DNA of 64,000 nt, from the NCBI RefSeq assembly GCF_011038965.1, contig NZ_JAAKEB010000009.1, forward strand, positions 1 through 64,000, given 5' to 3'. This DNA comes from Adlercreutzia sp. ZJ141. GTDB lineage: Bacteria; Actinomycetota; Coriobacteriia; Coriobacteriales; Eggerthellaceae. Below, piece after piece: positions 45,007-55,983 of this stretch. A program made the position numbers and the translations under genes. Position 1 is the first letter of the stretch. Each line of letters opens with the position of its first letter. The notes beneath the pieces are model-generated. The model did not search any database and had not been told where the DNA came from. It saw nothing but the letters and a program-made list of their open reading frames with translations.

Positions 45007-47316
45007 ATGTCAATAGTTGGTTTGCTCGGTTTGCTTGTTGCATTCGCGGGCATTGGCGTGACGGTGGTATGCCTGATCACCGGTTCTCTTCTGCAGAAAA
45101 AGCGAACGGGCGGCACCGGCGAAACGCTCACCTGGGCGGGGCATCTGGGCGTGCTTATCACGTTCATCGCGCTCACGGTGTGTTGTGGTGTGTTGGTGTA
45201 CTGCTTTATGGTGGGCGATTACTCGATTGAGTACGTACTCATGCAGCACAGCGACTCTTCGAGCAGCATTGCTTGGTTCTACAAGCTCTCGGGGCTTTGG
45301 GCAGGCCGCGAAGGGTCGCTCTTGTTCTGGGCGTGGCTTATTGCAGCATTTGCTTCGCTTATGGCTGTCCGAAATATGAAAGGTTTGGCGAAGCTCGACA
45401 GTATGGCTCTGCTCGTGCTGACCATCGTGCTTGCGGCGTTTGTGGGTGTGTTGTTGTTCTCGGAAAGCAATATGCCATTCACAGTGACGCCTGAGAATCT
45501 GTACGGTGCGGACGGTACGCTGACCGCTGCAGCGTCAATGTACGGTATGAATGCGCTGCTCGAGCACTGGGCCATGGCGATTCATCCGCCCACGCTGTTT
45601 GTGGGTTACGCTGGCCTGACGGTGCCGTTTGCATACGCCATTGCGGCGTTGATTGTGAACGACCCGTCGCGCGAATGGGTGATCCGTTCGCAGCGTTACA
45701 CCCTGTTCTCGTGGCTGTTTTTAGGAATAGGCATTGGTTTAGGTGCTGTGTGGGCGTACGTGGTGCTCGGTTGGGGCGGTTACTGGGGCTGGGATCCGGT
45801 CGAGAACGCCAGCTTGTTGTCGTGGTTAGTGGGTGTGGCGCTCATCCATAGCTTCACGGTGTACCACCAGCGTGGCGCATTCAAACGTTGGAGTGTCATG
45901 TGTGCATGTCTGACGTTTGCGTTTGTGATCGTGGGTACGTTCATTTCTCGCTCCGGACTGGTGCAATCAGTACACGCATTCGAGGGTGATCCGGTGTCGT
46001 TGGCGCTGTTCGGTGCGCTGATTGTGGTGTCGGTGCTCGCTGGTGTTGTGGGTCTTGTTGTTCGCTGGAAGAGTTTTGGGCCGTCGTCTGATGGCACTGA
46101 CGATGTGGAAAACATGTTGTCCAAGGATGCCGCCTACTATTTCAACAACGTGATCATGGTGGTGTTCGCGTTCTTGCTCGCGTATCTGACCATTTCGTCA
46201 GCGCTACCGTCGTTTCTGCCATTCGGTGGCCAGAGCGTTTCTGCGGGAACCTACAACGCCATCGCTCGTCCGCTCGGTGTGGTGTATTTGGCCATTCTTG
46301 CGGTGTGTCCGCTGTTGTCGTGGGGTAAGACCGATGGCGCACGTTTTTGGAAGCGTGCGAAGGTGCCGGGATTGTGCGCATTGGCGTTGTTTGTCGTGCT
46401 CATGGTGTATTTCGCCACGTACCTGTTCCCTGGCTACAACGACGTGATTGCCGCTGGGGGCGCCGAGGCGGCGGGATTGCAGGAGGAAGGCCCCTGGTGG
46501 TACTACAACGGGCTTGCCGTGGTTGGTTTTGCGGTTGCGAGCGTATTGTTCTTCAACTCGCTGTTCATGCTGGGGCGCGCGGTGCGCGGTTATGCGAAGG
46601 GTCACGGCTGCGGCACGCTTGTGGCACTTGGCGGCATGCTCACGCATCGTGCCTCCTCGTTTGGCGGTTTTGTTGCCCACTTTGGCATGGCAGTTATTCT
46701 AGTGGGGCTTATCGGCTCATCGATGTACGTAACGAACGTGGTAGGATACGTGCCCTACGATTCTGAAACTGACACCGTGGCCGAGGATTTCACTATCAAG
46801 GATTACACGCTCACGTACACGGGCAATAGTATCGAACAGCAGAAAAACGGTGATGACATCCTGTACACGCTATATTACGACGTGTACAAAAACGGCGAGT
46901 TTGTTGGTTCGGTTGATCCGACGGTGCAGCTGGTTCAATCCACTCAGCAGCAAAAACTCATCGCAAGCGTTATATCGTTTCCGACCGAAGACTTGTTCGT
47001 GGTGTACCGCGGTGTGAACGAAGACGGCGACTTTGCTATGGATGTGCGCGTAAACCCGTTGATCTCTGTGGTGTGGGTAGGGTTTGTGTTGCTGATGGTA
47101 GGCGTGGTAATAGCCACGTGCGGCGGGCGCGGCGCGAAACGGGGATCGCGCGCCGAAGGGGAAGATGTGCTGCTCGCTGCTGAGACGGAAGGCACTGGCT
47201 TGGCCGATGTGGCTCCTGAAGCTGCAAACGACGACCATGACTCCGCCAAGGCCACCAACAGCGATACTGCCAGTGTTGCCAAGGTGGCGGTAGACGCCGA
47301 TACAGACAAGGACTAG
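45007..47316 (+). CDS. ccmF: Cytochrome c heme lyase subunit CcmF
   Basis: Large membrane protein that attaches heme from holo-CcmE to apocytochrome c. 769 residues with many membrane helices; the tryptophan-rich WWD segment GWGGYWGWDPVENASLLSW is at about residues 256-274. The C-terminal 50 residues are an alanine- and aspartate-rich cytoplasmic tail. 33 bp after ccmE. With no ccmH or ccmI nearby, CcmF probably works with few partners. Confidence 0.94.
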   Translation: MSIVGLLGLLVAFAGIGVTVVCLITGSLLQKKRTGGTGETLTWAGHLGVLITFIALTVCCGVLVYCFMVGDYSIEYVLMQHSDSSSSIAWFYKLSGLWAGREGSLLFWAWLIAAFASLMAVRNMKGLAKLDSMALLVLTIVLAAFVGVLLFSESNMPFTVTPENLYGADGTLTAAASMYGMNALLEHWAMAIHPPTLFVGYAGLTVPFAYAIAALIVNDPSREWVIRSQRYTLFSWLFLGIGIGLGAVWAYVVLGWGGYWGWDPVENASLLSWLVGVALIHSFTVYHQRGAFKRWSVMCACLTFAFVIVGTFISRSGLVQSVHAFEGDPVSLALFGALIVVSVLAGVVGLVVRWKSFGPSSDGTDDVENMLSKDAAYYFNNVIMVVFAFLLAYLTISSALPSFLPFGGQSVSAGTYNAIARPLGVVYLAILAVCPLLSWGKTDGARFWKRAKVPGLCALALFVVLMVYFATYLFPGYNDVIAAGGAEAAGLQEEGPWWYYNGLAVVGFAVASVLFFNSLFMLGRAVRGYAKGHGCGTLVALGGMLTHRASSFGGFVAHFGMAVILVGLIGSSMYVTNVVGYVPYDSETDTVAEDFTIKDYTLTYTGNSIEQQKNGDDILYTLYYDVYKNGEFVGSVDPTVQLVQSTQQQKLIASVISFPTEDLFVVYRGVNEDGDFAMDVRVNPLISVVWVGFVLLMVGVVIATCGGRGAKRGSRAEGEDVLLAAETEGTGLADVAPEAANDDHDSAKATNSDTASVAKVAVDADTDKD

Positions 47317-47322
47317 CCGGTC

Positions 47323-48036
47323 ATGGAAGCTGCGATAAGGGCACAGAAGCTGACGAAGGCGTTTGGCACGCGCAAAGCGGTTGATAGGGTAACCTTTGAA
47401 GTGCCCTGCGGCGCGTTTCTGTCGATATTCGGCCCGAACGGTGCGGGTAAGACCACGTTGCTCAGGATGCTTTCCACACTTGTTCGTCCAACCAAGGGTG
47501 AGGCGTGGCTTATGGGAATCGACATGAGAGAAGAGCCCGACTGCGCGCGCGAGCACATTGGGCTTATCTCGCACAACTCCATGTTGTATCCCGATTTGAC
47601 TGCCGAAGAGAACCTAATGGTGTACGCGCGTTTGTATGGCGTGCATAACCCCGAACAACGTGTGCTCGACATGCTTGAGGCGGTCGAGCTTAAGCACCGT
47701 CGTCACGATGTGGTGCGCACGTTCTCCCGTGGCATGACACAGCGGCTCTCTATTGCTCGTGCGCTCATCCACAATCCCGACGTAGTATTTCTTGATGAGC
47801 CGTATTCTGGTCTCGACCCGCATGCGGTTGAGATATTCGACGAGCTCATTGACGCGCAGCGTGCCGGGCGAACGTTTGTCATGGTCAGCCATGATCTGCG
47901 AAAAGGTTTCGACATGTGCACGCATGCGCTCGTGATGGCGAAAGGTCACATTGTGACGTTTGATGAGAAGGGAAACCTCGATTTCGGGGAGTTTGCGGAC
48001 TTATACCGCGCAACGGTTGGCATGGGGGTGTCGTAA
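47323..48036 (+). CDS. ccmA: Ccm ABC transporter ATPase CcmA
   Basis: ATPase that drives release of holo-CcmE from CcmC. 237 residues with Walker A GPNGAGKTT near residue 45, signature FSRGMTQRLSIARAL and Walker B VVFLDEPYSGLD. 6 bp after ccmF and directly abutting ccmB, so assignment as CcmA rests on context as well as sequence. Confidence 0.92.
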   Translation: MEAAIRAQKLTKAFGTRKAVDRVTFEVPCGAFLSIFGPNGAGKTTLLRMLSTLVRPTKGEAWLMGIDMREEPDCAREHIGLISHNSMLYPDLTAEENLMVYARLYGVHNPEQRVLDMLEAVELKHRRHDVVRTFSRGMTQRLSIARALIHNPDVVFLDEPYSGLDPHAVEIFDELIDAQRAGRTFVMVSHDLRKGFDMCTHALVMAKGHIVTFDEKGNLDFGEFADLYRATVGMGVS

Positions 48037-48786
48037 ATGGCAGAACGCATGCAGACCGCGCGGGCGCAGCGTACGGTCGAAGTGAGCCGACCGTCGACGT
48101 TTTCCCAGTACAAGGCATTGCTCCGAAAAGACCTCGAGCAGGAATTTCGTACAAAGGAAATGCTCACATCTATGGGCATCTATGCGCTGTTGGTGCTCGT
48201 TGTGTACGGAGCGGCACTTGGTCAAACGTCGAAGGACCTCGACATCCTTCAAATGTGCGGCGGCTTGTTGTGGGCGCTCATCGTGTTTACGTCGCTGCTG
48301 GGCTTGAACCGTTCCTTCTCGCACGAAAAGGAACAAGGTTGTCTCGAGGGTATTCTGCTTGTCCCACTCGACCGTTCTGTGGTTTTTCTGGCGAAGGCAA
48401 CGTCAAACTTGTTGTTTCTGTTGGCGGTTGAGGTTGTGGCTGTGCCCTTGTTCTTCTTTTTCTTTTTGCAGGGGACAAGCGTGGCTTCGTCATTTTGGCT
48501 GATGGTTGTGCCGTTGCTTGTGGGAACGGTGGGCGTTGCTGGCATTGGTACGTTGCTTTCGACTATCACCATTAACACGCGCGGCAAAGATGTGATGCTA
48601 GCGGTGCTGTTTATTCCGCTGGTGTTCCCGTTGCTGTACGCATGTGTGTCGTCGACTACGGCGGTGATCGTTGGTGCTGAAGGGTTCATGGATGTGTTTG
48701 TTCCTGCCATTGCGCTGGCTGCTGGCTACGACGTAGTTATGGTGCTGGTCAGCTGGGTTCTGTACGATTACGTCGTGTCCGCGTAG
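48037..48786 (+). CDS. ccmB: Ccm ABC transporter membrane subunit CcmB
   Basis: Membrane partner of CcmA. 249 residues with six predicted helices; the N-terminal segment ALLRKDLEQEFRTKEML and the later GTVGVAGIGTLLSTITINTRGKD-like loop (positions 48527-48595) are CcmB hallmarks. Its ATG abuts the ccmA stop, and the ribosome-binding region lies within ccmA. Confidence 0.91.
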   Translation: MAERMQTARAQRTVEVSRPSTFSQYKALLRKDLEQEFRTKEMLTSMGIYALLVLVVYGAALGQTSKDLDILQMCGGLLWALIVFTSLLGLNRSFSHEKEQGCLEGILLVPLDRSVVFLAKATSNLLFLLAVEVVAVPLFFFFFLQGTSVASSFWLMVVPLLVGTVGVAGIGTLLSTITINTRGKDVMLAVLFIPLVFPLLYACVSSTTAVIVGAEGFMDVFVPAIALAAGYDVVMVLVSWVLYDYVVSA

Positions 48787-48957
48787 TGCGCGCAGGTGGT
48801 ACTGCTGAAGTGTTACGACGTTGCAGCGCCGCGGTGCCGCTTGTACGGTAGTTGCCTGCGTGAGTGAGCCGCCTGTGCACATGCGTTTTGTGCCACCATG
48901 AAAGCAGGTCGCGCGAGCCGCTGGGTGGCGGCGCGGTGCGGGTGGCAGCGGTTCGGC

Positions 48958-48963
48958 TATAAT
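48958..48963 (+). promoter_or_regulatory. -10 candidate upstream of ccmC
   Basis: TATAAT within CGGCTATAATG in the 209-bp gap between ccmB and ccmC, without a good -35. The same CGGCTATAATG word occurs before dnaX. Confidence 0.42.
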
Positions 48964-48995
48964 GCAGTAAGACCGCATTTGAGAGAAAGGTCGTT

Positions 48996-49760
48996 ATGGC
49001 TGGGGAAAAAACCAGTAAACTTCCCGAGGCGGGACAATGGCCCGACCGTCTGGCGGCGGTGCTGCTGCCGTTAGGTGCTGTGGTGTCTGTCATCGGGTTT
49101 CTCATGGCGTTTCTGTACGCCGCGCCGGTGAATGGCGCAAGCGTCGAAGGCGTTGAGCTCATTGGTGGGCAGATGATCAACACGAAGCTGCTCATTTCTC
49201 AGAAAATCTTCTACTTCCATATGCCGGTTGCGCTGGTGTCGTTTATTGCTTTGGCGTTCGGTGCGTACTATGGCGCACGCTTTCTGGCAACGAAGCAGCA
49301 GCGTTTCGACACGTGTTCCAAGATAGCGATGGAAATTGCACTTGTGTTCGTGGTGGCTACGATGGCAACCGGCGAAATGTGGACGCGCTTTGAGTGGGGC
49401 GTGTGGTGGTATTGGGAACCTCGGTTGACTACGTACTTGGTGCTTATGTTGATTGTCATCGCGTATTTTATCTTGCGCAACGCGATTGACGACTTCGAGC
49501 GGCGCGGCGTATATGCGGCCGTTATCTCCATTGTCTCGCTTGTCGATGTGCCCATCTGCTTTATGGTTACGCGCATGATTCCGTCGAGTGTGCATCCGGT
49601 GGTATTGCGTGCAGGGGGTATGTCGGGCGACATGGGCATGACCGTTGCTGTGTGCATGGTGGGGCTGCTCATGGTGGCGTTTGGCTTGTACCGTGCGCGC
49701 TTCCGTCAAGTTCGTATGGCTGAGCGCGTTGAAGCATTAAAAGAGCTACTAGACGAATAG
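48996..49760 (+). CDS. ccmC: Heme transporter/CcmE-loading protein CcmC
   Basis: Loads heme onto CcmE. 254 residues with six predicted helices. The tryptophan-rich motif reads WWYWEPRLTTYLVL, where proteobacterial CcmC has WGTWW-DARLT-like sequence, so the usual Asp is a Glu-Pro here. Conserved His residues flank this motif (FYFHMP upstream, SSVHPV downstream). ATG follows GAGAAAGG. Confidence 0.9.
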   Translation: MAGEKTSKLPEAGQWPDRLAAVLLPLGAVVSVIGFLMAFLYAAPVNGASVEGVELIGGQMINTKLLISQKIFYFHMPVALVSFIALAFGAYYGARFLATKQQRFDTCSKIAMEIALVFVVATMATGEMWTRFEWGVWWYWEPRLTTYLVLMLIVIAYFILRNAIDDFERRGVYAAVISIVSLVDVPICFMVTRMIPSSVHPVVLRAGGMSGDMGMTVAVCMVGLLMVAFGLYRARFRQVRMAERVEALKELLDE

Positions 49761-51342: not shown

Positions 51343-52251
51343 ATGCCTGACATTCAACTTCGCTTCCATAAGGACATGCTCGTCTTGTCGGCTCCGATTG
51401 CACCCGTGTTGGAGCGTCAAGGGTTCGACCCTGATCAGAGCCTAGAATTTGCTGGATTGGTTGAACCGGAGGCTGTTCGTGATGCACTGCGGCTCAATAA
51501 GGTTGCCGGTGCTCAGTGTTTGGTTACCAACACCGAATCGGCGCTGCCGGCGAGGTTGGCTCATGTGGGGCTGGAAGACCGTGTGCAGGACGTCATCGAC
51601 CAGGGTATTGCCACCGCGGTATCGCTTACTCCGCAGCATCTGCTGGTTCATGTGGGCCCGAGTGGGTTGCCGCTCGATCCGTCCAGTAAAGCGTCATTGA
51701 ACGAGAGCCGCAGCCAATATGCTCGCGTTGCCCGCATGATGAGCGCCAAGGCGTTCGATGCGGTACTACTCGGAGGATTTGCCGATGCGGTCGATCTGAA
51801 ATGCGCGCTCATGGGCATGCGGCAAGTGCTCGACTGCCCGGTGTTCGCAAGCGTTGATGTTCGTGCCGATGGAATGCTTGCAAACGGCCGTCACACGTTG
51901 GAAGACGCATGCGCCGTTATGGACGAGTTTGGGGCGTCAGTTGCCGGCATTCGTTCGGAGCTGAGTATCGAAGGGGTACTTGCACTGGTTGGGCGTCTTC
52001 GTGCTGCAACGTCGCTTCCGGCAATGGTGTCGCTTACGGTAGCACGCAATGATCCCAAACAGGGCCAGGCAACTGCTGAGAACCCGTACTTCTGTCCGGA
52101 CACTATGATCGAGGTTGCCACACGCCTACGCGGCGGTGGGGTGCAATTTTTGCGCGCCGACGGCGCAGCAACGCCGGCATACACGGGCGCTTTAGTCGCC
52201 GCATCTGAAGGGTTTGACGTTATGCGCCCCGACGTGCAGGAGAACGAGTGA
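51343..52251 (+). CDS. Homocysteine S-methyltransferase-like protein lacking zinc cysteines
   Basis: Resembles the barrel domain of homocysteine methyltransferases: TNTESALPARLAHVGLEDRV, HVGPSGLPLD and the LLGGFADAVDLKCAL region follow the family order. The zinc-ligand cysteines are missing: the GINC position reads AGIRSE and the GGCCGTTP position reads FLRADGAATP. It is therefore unlikely to activate homocysteine in the normal way and may be a regulatory or repurposed pseudoenzyme. 302 residues from ATG 51343 (AAGGGGAGG upstream). Overlaps the next gene by ATGA, implying coupled translation. Confidence 0.72.
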   Translation: MPDIQLRFHKDMLVLSAPIAPVLERQGFDPDQSLEFAGLVEPEAVRDALRLNKVAGAQCLVTNTESALPARLAHVGLEDRVQDVIDQGIATAVSLTPQHLLVHVGPSGLPLDPSSKASLNESRSQYARVARMMSAKAFDAVLLGGFADAVDLKCALMGMRQVLDCPVFASVDVRADGMLANGRHTLEDACAVMDEFGASVAGIRSELSIEGVLALVGRLRAATSLPAMVSLTVARNDPKQGQATAENPYFCPDTMIEVATRLRGGGVQFLRADGAATPAYTGALVAASEGFDVMRPDVQENE

Positions 52252-52745
52252 TGACCAACCACAATTCTGGATCTGATCGTCGCCCGTTTGCTGTTATTCC
52301 CCCGTGCGTATACGAACAAGCGGCTCGTCGTATGCCAGCGGATGACGTCACTGAGCGTGCCTTGGGCGACGTGTGCGAAAAGCGTGCGGATGATATGTGT
52401 GATGCCTTTAATGATGCGACGTTCGACGAGCAGCTCGCGTACGTGCAGCGGGTTTTGCTGCAGGAGCGCGCCGCACGTCCGTTCCCACGCCGGGCGCAGG
52501 AACGAAGCCCGTTTTACGGCGTGTTGCAGGATTTCGTCGACTCGCTCTTTGAAGGCGATTGTGACGCGGTGCTCCGTCGGCTCGATGTGGTAGTGGCGGC
52601 CGAGTCAGCCGAGTTGCCTGCCGACTTGCTGGAAGTGGTCGAGCTGCTTCCGCCGGGAAGCTACACACGGCAGCGGTTGTGCGGTCAGCTGAACTCCGCC
52701 ATCGGTGCTCACGCGTGGTCGAGAACGTATGGGACGGTCAGTTGA
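52251..52745 (+). CDS. Hypothetical protein coupled to the methyltransferase-like gene
   Basis: Not recognised. 164 residues from ATG 52251 (AGGAG 10 bp upstream); a GTG at 52248 is an alternative. Predicted soluble, mostly helical and acidic, with no signal peptide or cofactor motif; two cysteines sit near residues 18 and 42. Translational coupling suggests it works with the preceding protein. Ends before a terminator at 52846-52870. Confidence 0.65.
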   Translation: MTNHNSGSDRRPFAVIPPCVYEQAARRMPADDVTERALGDVCEKRADDMCDAFNDATFDEQLAYVQRVLLQERAARPFPRRAQERSPFYGVLQDFVDSLFEGDCDAVLRRLDVVVAAESAELPADLLEVVELLPPGSYTRQRLCGQLNSAIGAHAWSRTYGTVS

Positions 52746-52845
52746 CGGAGTGTTTGTGTGCCCGAAAGGCGCTGTGCTGCGCTTGCTGGGAAGCAGGGCC
52801 GGCGATCGGTAGGTGTGTGCCGGGCTTGTGAATATACTATGAACG

Positions 52846-52870
52846 GGAGCGCTCGCGAAGCGCTCCTTTT
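52846..52870 (+). terminator. Terminator after the 52251 gene
   Basis: Perfect 8-bp stem GGAGCGCT / AGCGCTCC with a 5-nt loop followed by TTTTCTG. Confidence 0.88.
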
Positions 52871-52914
52871 CTGTGTGGAGCCTGCATTTTCGAATAACGG
52901 TTCAATGTCAAGCC

Positions 52915-53078: not shown

Positions 53079-55424
53079 ATGGTCGGAACCATCATTAAAC
53101 GAGACGGGCGCACAGCTGAATTCAATAAAGACAAAATCACCGACGCGGTCGAAAAAGCCTTCCAGGCATGCGCTGCCATGCAAGATCGCTCCGTCGCCGA
53201 GGAAATAGCGGACAAGGTTGTTGAGAAGCTGGAAAACGGCGCCATCGAGGGCACTCCTACGGTTGAGGGCGTGCAGGACTTGGTGGAGGAAACCCTTATT
53301 GAGTCGGGTTTTGTTCAAACGTCGAAGTCCTACATTCTGTACCGCGCCGAACGTAGCCGCGCACGCGATGTGAACAGCCGTCTCATTCAAACACTGAAGG
53401 ACATCACGTTCTCCAAGGCGTCTGAGTCCGATATGAAGCGCGAGAACGCCAATATCGACGCCGACACCGCCATGGGCACTATGCTGAAGTATGGGTCGGA
53501 GTCGGCCAAGCAGTTCTACGAGATGTGCGTCATCGACCCGAAATTCGCGCGCGCTCATCGCGAAGGCGACATTCATATTCACGACATGGACTTCTACACG
53601 CTCACCACCACGTGCTGCCAGATTGAGTTGAAAAAGCTCTTCAAGGGCGGCTTCTCCACTGGTCACGGTGTGCTGCGTGAGCCCAACGACATTTCCAGCT
53701 ACGCAGCGCTGGCCTGCATTGCCATTCAGTCGAACCAAAATGACCAGCATGGTGGTCAGAGTGTATGTGACTTCGATTACGGCTTGGCTGAAGGCGTGCG
53801 TAAAACCTACCGTCGCCTATTCAAGAAGCACTTGGCTGAAGCGGTCGACCTGCTTACCGACATCGAGGATGACCGTGCCTTCGCCGAAGGCGCGCTGGCG
53901 CGCGTTGAAGAAGTGACCGGCGTTGTGGCGAGCATTGATATCGACGAAGGGTTCCGCGCCGCCGTGCTCGCCGAGCTTGATGCTGCAGGCGTTGATGCTC
54001 GTACCGCTGGGCGCGTAGTTGCCTACGCCGAAAAGAATGCTGAGCGCGATACCGACCGCTCAACGTTCCAGGCTATGGAAGCACTTGTGCACAACCTGAA
54101 CACTATGCATTCTCGCGCGGGTGCGCAGACGCCGTTCTCTTCAGTGAACTACGGCATGGACACCAGCCCCGAAGGGCGCATGGTTATTAAGAACATGTTG
54201 CTGGCCACCGAAGAGGGCTTAGGGTCTGGCGAGACACCTATCTTCCCCGTGCAGATTTTCCGCGTGAAGGAAGGTGTGAACTACAACCCCGAAGATCCGA
54301 ACTACGATCTGTTCAAGCTGGCCATGCATTGCTCGGCCAAGCGGCTGTTTCCGAACTTTAGCTTCCTTGATGCGCCGTTTAATGCGCAGTACTACAAGGG
54401 CACGCCAGAAACCGAGATTGCCTACATGGGCTGCCGCACGCGAGTCATAGGCAATAGGTATGACCCCAACCGCGAGGTCACGCCTGGCCGTGGCAACCTG
54501 TCGTTTACGTCCATCAATCTGCCGCGTCTGGCTATTCGCGCTCGTGGCGATATCGATTTGTTCTTCGATTTGTTGGATGCGAAACTGGCGCTGGTCATCG
54601 GACAGCTCGATGAGCGCTTCGAGATTCAGGCGCGCAAGCACGTGTACAATGCGCCATTCCTTATGGGGCAGGGCGTGTGGATCGATTCCGAGAATCTGAA
54701 AGCCACTGACACACAGCGCGAAGTGCTCAAGCATGGCACGCTGACCACAGGCTTTATCGGCTTGGCTGAATGCCTGGTGGCGCTTACGGGCCACCATCAC
54801 GGCGAGAGCCCCGAGGCACAGCGTCTGGGCTTGGAGATCGTAGGCCATATGCGCAGCTACGTCGATCGTATCTCCCGCGAGCGGAACATGAATTACACGC
54901 TCATCGCTACGCCTGCCGAGGGGCTGTCGGGCCGTTTTGTGCGCATGGACCGCGCCCGCTACGGCAGCATTCCCGGCGTCACCGACCGCGACTACTACAC
55001 CAATGGCTTCCATGTGCCGGTGTACTACGACATCAGCGCGTTCGATAAGATCGCCATCGAGGCACCCTATCACGCGCTTACCAACGGCGGGCATATCAGC
55101 TACATCGAGCTCGACGGTGACCCCACCGAAAACTTGGAGGCCTTTGAGAGTGTTATCCGCTACATGAAGGAATGCGGTATGGGGTATGGCAGTGTGAACC
55201 ATCCGGTCGATCGCGACCCAGTGTGCGGCTACAACGGCATCATTGAAGACGTGTGTCCTAAGTGCGGCAGGCGCGAGGAAGAGCACGGCGTGCAGTTCGA
55301 GCGCATTCGTCGTATCACGGGGTATCTGGTGGGTACGCTCGATCGCTTCAATGACGCAAAGCGTGCCGAAGAGCATGACCGTGTGAAGCACGTTGTTCCG
55401 GTGGAGCACGCAGAACAGGCGTAA
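53079..55424 (+). CDS. nrdD: Anaerobic ribonucleoside-triphosphate reductase (class III)
   Basis: Oxygen-sensitive glycyl-radical enzyme making deoxyribonucleotides. 781 residues: an N-terminal ATP-cone (IIKRDGRTAEFNKDKI, about 4-95), the barrel with HDMDFYTLTTTCCQ and MHSRAGAQTPFSSVNYG, the C-terminal zinc region DPVCGYNG..CPKCGR and the glycyl-radical loop RITGYLVGTLDRFN. Activated by NrdG, encoded 22 bp downstream. Likely repressed by NrdR through the boxes at 52937-52984. Confidence 0.96.
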   Translation: MVGTIIKRDGRTAEFNKDKITDAVEKAFQACAAMQDRSVAEEIADKVVEKLENGAIEGTPTVEGVQDLVEETLIESGFVQTSKSYILYRAERSRARDVNSRLIQTLKDITFSKASESDMKRENANIDADTAMGTMLKYGSESAKQFYEMCVIDPKFARAHREGDIHIHDMDFYTLTTTCCQIELKKLFKGGFSTGHGVLREPNDISSYAALACIAIQSNQNDQHGGQSVCDFDYGLAEGVRKTYRRLFKKHLAEAVDLLTDIEDDRAFAEGALARVEEVTGVVASIDIDEGFRAAVLAELDAAGVDARTAGRVVAYAEKNAERDTDRSTFQAMEALVHNLNTMHSRAGAQTPFSSVNYGMDTSPEGRMVIKNMLLATEEGLGSGETPIFPVQIFRVKEGVNYNPEDPNYDLFKLAMHCSAKRLFPNFSFLDAPFNAQYYKGTPETEIAYMGCRTRVIGNRYDPNREVTPGRGNLSFTSINLPRLAIRARGDIDLFFDLLDAKLALVIGQLDERFEIQARKHVYNAPFLMGQGVWIDSENLKATDTQREVLKHGTLTTGFIGLAECLVALTGHHHGESPEAQRLGLEIVGHMRSYVDRISRERNMNYTLIATPAEGLSGRFVRMDRARYGSIPGVTDRDYYTNGFHVPVYYDISAFDKIAIEAPYHALTNGGHISYIELDGDPTENLEAFESVIRYMKECGMGYGSVNHPVDRDPVCGYNGIIEDVCPKCGRREEEHGVQFERIRRITGYLVGTLDRFNDAKRAEEHDRVKHVVPVEHAEQA

Positions 55425-55446
55425 GAGGAACAGGCGGAATAAGGGC

Positions 55447-55983
55447 ATGAATGTCAACCTGTATGGCGCAGTTCCCGACTCCATTGTTGATGGGCCGGGG
55501 CTGCGCTATGCCGTGTTTGTGCAGGGTTGTAGCCATGGGTGCCCCGGGTGTCACAATCCCGAAAGCCAGCCCGCCCATGCCGGTATGCTTACCACCACCG
55601 ATGCGGTGCTTGCCGACATCCGCGCGAATGGGCTCGTACACGACGTCACGTTTTCGGGCGGCGAGCCGTTTGAGCAGGCGGCAGCGTGCGCGCACATGGC
55701 GCGCCAGCTGAAGGAGTACGGCTACGGCGTGTGGACTTACACGGGCTATCTGTATGAAGACTTGTTGCGTCGTGCCGAAGAAGACGAACCCACGCGCGAG
55801 CTACTTAACAACACTGACGTGCTGGTAGATGGGCCGTTCATTGAGTCGCTCAAGTCGCTCGGACTCAGCTGGCGCGGCTCATCGAACCAGCGGCTTATCG
55901 ACCTTCCCGCCACGCGCGCAGCGGGGTGCATTGTTGAATGGCGTGCACCCAGCTTCGTTTTGCACAAGCCGGCATCGTGGTAG
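55447..55983 (+). CDS. nrdG: Anaerobic ribonucleotide reductase activating protein
   Basis: Radical SAM enzyme that installs the glycyl radical on NrdD. 178 residues with the cluster motif CSHGCPGC and the FSGGEPFEQA motif. ATG 55447 begins MNVNLYGAVPDSIVDGPGLR, the family start. Cotranscribed with nrdD. Confidence 0.95.
   Translation: MNVNLYGAVPDSIVDGPGLRYAVFVQGCSHGCPGCHNPESQPAHAGMLTTTDAVLADIRANGLVHDVTFSGGEPFEQAAACAHMARQLKEYGYGVWTYTGYLYEDLLRRAEEDEPTRELLNNTDVLVDGPFIESLKSLGLSWRGSSNQRLIDLPATRAAGCIVEWRAPSFVLHKPASW

Follow-up and report, generated by a model that had tools for sequence, protein, structure and literature searches.

What does a methyltransferase barrel do once the residues of its catalytic metal site have been replaced? 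This question is raised by two overlapping genes in a 64,000-nucleotide stretch of the genome of Adlercreutzia sp. ZJ141 (hereafter the window). An earlier note had read the first gene as a homocysteine S-methyltransferase-like barrel with both of its zinc-cysteine sites replaced, translationally coupled to a fixed partner of 164 residues, and had suggested a new role for it, perhaps in sensing or linked to corrinoids. Upstream of the barrel ORF start (ATG, 51343) lies AGGGGAGG, and the pair comprises the following features.

51343 to 52251, plus strand: predicted zinc-less S-methyl_trans (beta/alpha)8 barrel protein, 302 amino acids, ATG start, stop codon included.
52251 to 52745, plus strand: partner protein, 164 amino acids, ATG start, overlapping the barrel stop codon (TGATG).
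52251 to 52505, plus strand: N-terminal extension of the partner, specific to the window and coding-like in composition, with no homologues found.
52506 to 52742, plus strand: conserved helical core of the partner, about 80 amino acids, ending in YGTV plus one residue and found across the Coriobacteriia.
52845 to 52875, plus strand: terminator-like hairpin with a T run, placed after the partner and ahead of nrdD, a consensus match only.

The two ORFs lie on the same strand, and the barrel stop (52249-52251) does overlap the partner start (52251-52253); the overlap, however, reads TGATG and not ATGA. The terminator-like hairpin 3' of the partner and before nrdD suggests a two-gene transcription unit.

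Membership of the barrel in the homocysteine S-methyltransferase superfamily was borne out by score and by predicted fold. The Pfam profile PF02574 (S-methyl_trans) matched it with an E-value of 3.8e-11 and 43.8 bits, against a curated cut-off of 22, and a profile search found this to be the sole PF02574 match in the window's genome. There was also a match to PRK08645, lying in the N-terminal part of that model and scoring far under its cut-off. AlphaFold2, given a 19-sequence alignment, predicted a confident (beta/alpha)8 barrel (pLDDT 89.5, pTM 0.88). The PDB structures nearest to this model were the homocysteine domains of MetH, with the Thermotoga enzyme (3bol_B) at Z 36.7 and 2.0 A over 280 residues; BHMT and MmuM followed at Z of about 30-31, and unrelated barrels reached at most 17.7.

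Alignment of the barrel to zinc-intact relatives placed the replaced motifs as follows.

51388 to 51396, plus strand: SAP at beta1, where MetH has DGA; the Asp is lost.
51772 to 51780, plus strand: GGF at beta4 (most relatives: NGF), where MetH has ETF; the Glu is lost.
51946 to 51957, plus strand: GIRS for G(L/M)NC, without the first zinc Cys.
52150 to 52173, plus strand: LRADGAAT (relatives: LRAxGxAT) for the GSCCGST stretch, without its two zinc Cys.

Against the zinc-intact relatives from its own class, the window protein thus has SAPIA for DGAMG, LGG for LET, GIRS for GLNC and RADG for GSCC, so that none of the five motif residues of the original site is left. At the three zinc Cys of the NC and CC motifs it has S205, D273 and G274. 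The Asp of DGAMG (beta1) and the Glu of ET (beta4), which contact homocysteine in BHMT, have given way to S16 and G144, the latter position being Asn in most relatives. The Cys triad was found in none of about 70 Eggerthellaceae orthologues or loci, where the usual motifs are LVLS(A/S)P, LNGF, GFxT and QFLRAxGxATPAY, and was intact in seven of seven MetH-type relatives from the class and in the free-standing barrel of genome G337. The earlier reading of a lost metal and a retained fold therefore holds, by model and alignment, for the whole family. Most family members carry Cys or His at positions 9, 59, 74, 99, 107, 154 and 251; since C59, H99 and C154 are shared with zinc-intact relatives, the window has Ser at 107 and position 251 varies, there is no sign of a substitute metal site, nor did the alignment of the family barrels reveal a conserved Cys or His where the old ligands stood. 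By predicted fold and alignment, then, neither of the results that the note had named as refuting its reading (lack of a barrel fold, or other Cys or His in the metal site) was obtained. That the zinc site has been lost across the family is well supported by these alignments, and the barrel has probably ceased to methylate homocysteine. That it still does so, with another metal site or with none, would agree with its fold and PF02574 membership; we consider this very improbable in view of the loss of the three Cys, the Asp and the Glu together, the Cys/His pattern just described, and the retention of the barrel in genomes that have a canonical MetH-type gene.

Such retention was examined in the 45 family genomes that are at least 95% complete. 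In 29 of them a strong canonical PF02574 match accompanied the barrel (E 1e-64 to 1e-78, for the most part in ORFs of MetH length, 800-1100 amino acids); the other 16 had none, and the barrel was kept with and without it (the exception, G029, is a contig edge), so that its retention does not track methionine synthase. The window's genome, assembled into 57 contigs at 98.6% completeness, contains no match to MetE (PF01717) or to the B12-binding domain (PF02310), although a missing gene could in principle reflect an assembly gap. For want of these matches, MetE was rejected as an alternative methionine synthase and the corrinoid link proposed for the barrel was given up; the window protein itself is a 302-residue single domain and not of the MetH class. 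Taken together with retention independent of MetH, this gene content makes it unlikely that the barrel belongs to a methionine synthase or corrinoid enzyme in this genome. As a separate observation, a genome with no MetE, no B12-binding domain and no second PF02574 match points to methionine auxotrophy or to an unrecognised synthase.

The barrel profile was found in 131 of 138 genomes of the Eggerthellaceae, the family to which the names of its relatives assign the window, including 91 of the 92 good ones. Its absence from G029 is explained by the end of the contig, where the partner lies at the edge and is followed by nrdD, nrdG and mscS. Loss of catalytic residues, and the stop codons or split matches seen in some family copies, might suggest a decaying pseudogene or an annotation artefact. 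This we discount almost entirely, as the ORF is intact family-wide, has many invariant residues and evolves with pairwise dN/dS of 0.04-0.24, which indicates purifying selection.

All sampled barrels fall into a single clade (support 100/100) with a long stem. The nearest relatives of the profile outside the family are mostly ORFs of about 800-900 amino acids from other Coriobacteriia families, and the N-terminal domain of the MetH relatives of about 820 amino acids has the same MPDI start with all catalytic motifs kept. These results support the descent of the barrel from the N-terminal homocysteine-binding domain of a methionine synthase and its maintenance across the Eggerthellaceae. Family f6, from the same order, also has free-standing barrels (loci L113 and L114), with Cys intact in G337 and lacking in G357. 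Since these two form no supported joint clade and that of G357 sits on a long branch, an order of events in which the other domains were lost first and the zinc afterwards is plausible only. The metal site of the G357 barrel was possibly lost independently; that barrel adjoins argC/argJ-like genes.

Conserved residues might also mean that the barrel is still an enzyme, with a different, metal-free chemistry and with the small protein as an incidental neighbour or an activator. The strong purifying selection fits this reading, as do near-invariant, clade-specific polar residues near strand ends (S16, D112 and R271) among the positions conserved in this lineage only, which include S16, P18, P110, D112, S115, R123, Q125, G158, Q268, F269, R271 and G274. 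On the other hand, position 273 is variable, and conservation in the catalytic-face loops does not exceed that elsewhere in the barrel (permutation p 0.91), a negative test that gives no evidence of a conserved ligand site. Furthermore, no substrate is hinted at by the neighbouring genes, whose linkage varies (galU, nrdDG and mscS), or by riboswitches, an Rfam search near the barrel gene at 20 loci having returned tRNA matches only. We regard a metal-free enzyme as unlikely, while giving it some weight.

The 164-residue partner ORF is present as described earlier, but only its last 80 or so residues (from about 82 on) are conserved. The first 82 or so have no consistent match in relatives and no homologues there or elsewhere in their own genome, and their codon usage is coding-like. 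The core occurs in 246 of 296 Coriobacteriia genomes, nearly always as a single copy; among 246 genomes of the phylum, a single match (E 8.6e-5) fell outside the class. A distant phylum match of the partner profile, an 86-amino-acid ORF of G545, has no Pfam match. Invariant residues include Q93, L126, L133, P134, R140, Q146, N148, S149, W156 and Y160-V163, and YGTV plus one residue forms the C-terminal end of 77 of 78 extracted sequences, the exception being cut at a contig end. Some Eggerthellaceae (loci L058, L060, L061 and L085) have very long low-complexity inserts between helix 1 and the RRLD segment of the partner. AlphaFold2 predicted the core to be a compact helical domain (pLDDT about 93-98), for which searches of the PDB by sequence and by fold gave nothing convincing, the best match being the N-terminal domain of ScpA (Z 6.3). 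DUF2795 (PF11387) matched 13 of 42 partner members weakly, with a best E-value of 0.0011, and did not match the window protein up to E 1; this is too little similarity to assign the partner to DUF2795. Compared with that domain, the partner core has an extra N-terminal helix and the invariant C-terminal W...YGTV tail. The literature mentions of DUF2795 that we found were in two proteomics papers only, and our search found no paper on the barrel or on the pair.

At 49 of 63 named loci the partner core is adjacent to the barrel (downstream, on the same strand and within 700 nt), and in 40 of these 49 the stop-start gap is 20 nt or less. Eight loci with enough downstream sequence have no partner, all of them Adlercreutzia-type, one being labelled Enterorhabdus; in Adlercreutzia genomes the partner lies elsewhere. 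It is also found in most of the Coriobacteriia without the zinc-less barrel, and outside the Eggerthellaceae this class-specific, YGTV-ending core of about 80 amino acids is not linked to the barrel. The pairing is conserved, then, but not fixed as first supposed, and the data support an older class-specific small protein that is usually coupled with the barrel. Because the genes are unlinked in Adlercreutzia and the partner occurs class-wide without the barrel, a physical complex of the two is putative. The two proteins may not interact at all, sharing only a transcript and having separate roles, which would fit both views of the barrel. The class-wide distribution of the partner, its position near tatA/tatC/STAS genes in other Coriobacteriales families and the separated genes of Adlercreutzia favour such a division, whereas in most Eggerthellaceae genera the two genes stay tightly adjacent while their other neighbours change, which speaks against it; we judge it a substantial possibility that nevertheless falls short of even.

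In relatives, galU, nrdD, nrdG and mscS are frequent but inconstant neighbours of the pair. Outside the Eggerthellaceae, no theme unites the genes near the partner, which, named from reading their sequences, include a topoisomerase, tatA/tatC, STAS, an aminotransferase and an NhaA-like antiporter. A function inferred from neighbours was rejected, since linkage varies and themes differ, and a defence-system reading was rejected after PADLOC returned no match. In the window, positions 53079-55983 hold a class III ribonucleotide reductase nrdD (with ATP-cone), its activase nrdG and then an MscS-type channel. Positions 45007-49760, upstream of galU, hold a cytochrome c maturation-type cluster of CcmF-, CcmA-, CcmB- and CcmC-like ORFs by reading, of which the CcmC-type ORF was confirmed by Pfam; the order of this cluster is kept in several relatives.

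The reading that we favour, by a modest preference, is that the barrel is a neofunctionalised, zinc-free descendant of a MetH domain, a ligand-binding or scaffold barrel that forms a regulatory or adaptor pair together with the small protein. Its ancestor would be the homocysteine-binding domain of an MPDI-type methionine synthase native to the class, a domain that became a stand-alone barrel and lost its zinc ligands, the beta1 Asp and the beta4 Glu; the remodelled barrel may then bind a different small ligand or serve as a protein scaffold, and it and the small helical protein may work together in regulation or as an adaptor. A new role of this kind, in ligand binding or as an adaptor, is probable for the barrel, and the small protein probably shares in it. 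The negative result for the catalytic-face loops, the unlinked genes of Adlercreutzia and the partner's occurrence without the barrel weigh against this reading. The more specific proposal of a family-wide sensing module, in which the barrel would be a zinc-free metabolite receptor signalling through the Coriobacteriia-specific YGTV-tailed protein, seems to us rather improbable. The barrel is a clear case of an enzyme domain that lost its catalytic metal site and was then fixed across a gut-bacterial family, the Eggerthellaceae. Annotations and metabolic models that score the barrel as a homocysteine methyltransferase by homology are probably wrong for these bacteria, and both proteins are encoded by core genes in culturable strains.

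Among known systems, the N-terminal homocysteine-binding domain of Thermotoga maritima MetH (1q7m/3bol) shares PF02574 and the (beta/alpha)8 barrel with the window protein, and the Coriobacteriia MetH of about 820 amino acids shares with it an N-terminal MPDI..R....LV start. Unlike cobalamin-dependent MetH, the window barrel stands alone, without folate or B12 domains; it differs further in the replaced Cys triad, beta1 Asp and beta4 Glu and in a 7-residue insertion at the beta7 loop. MmuM and BHMT are stand-alone single barrels of the same fold, but keep the NC/CC zinc ligands that the window barrel lacks, and the single barrels of family f3, from the same order, likewise keep their Cys and form a clade separate from that of the window barrel.
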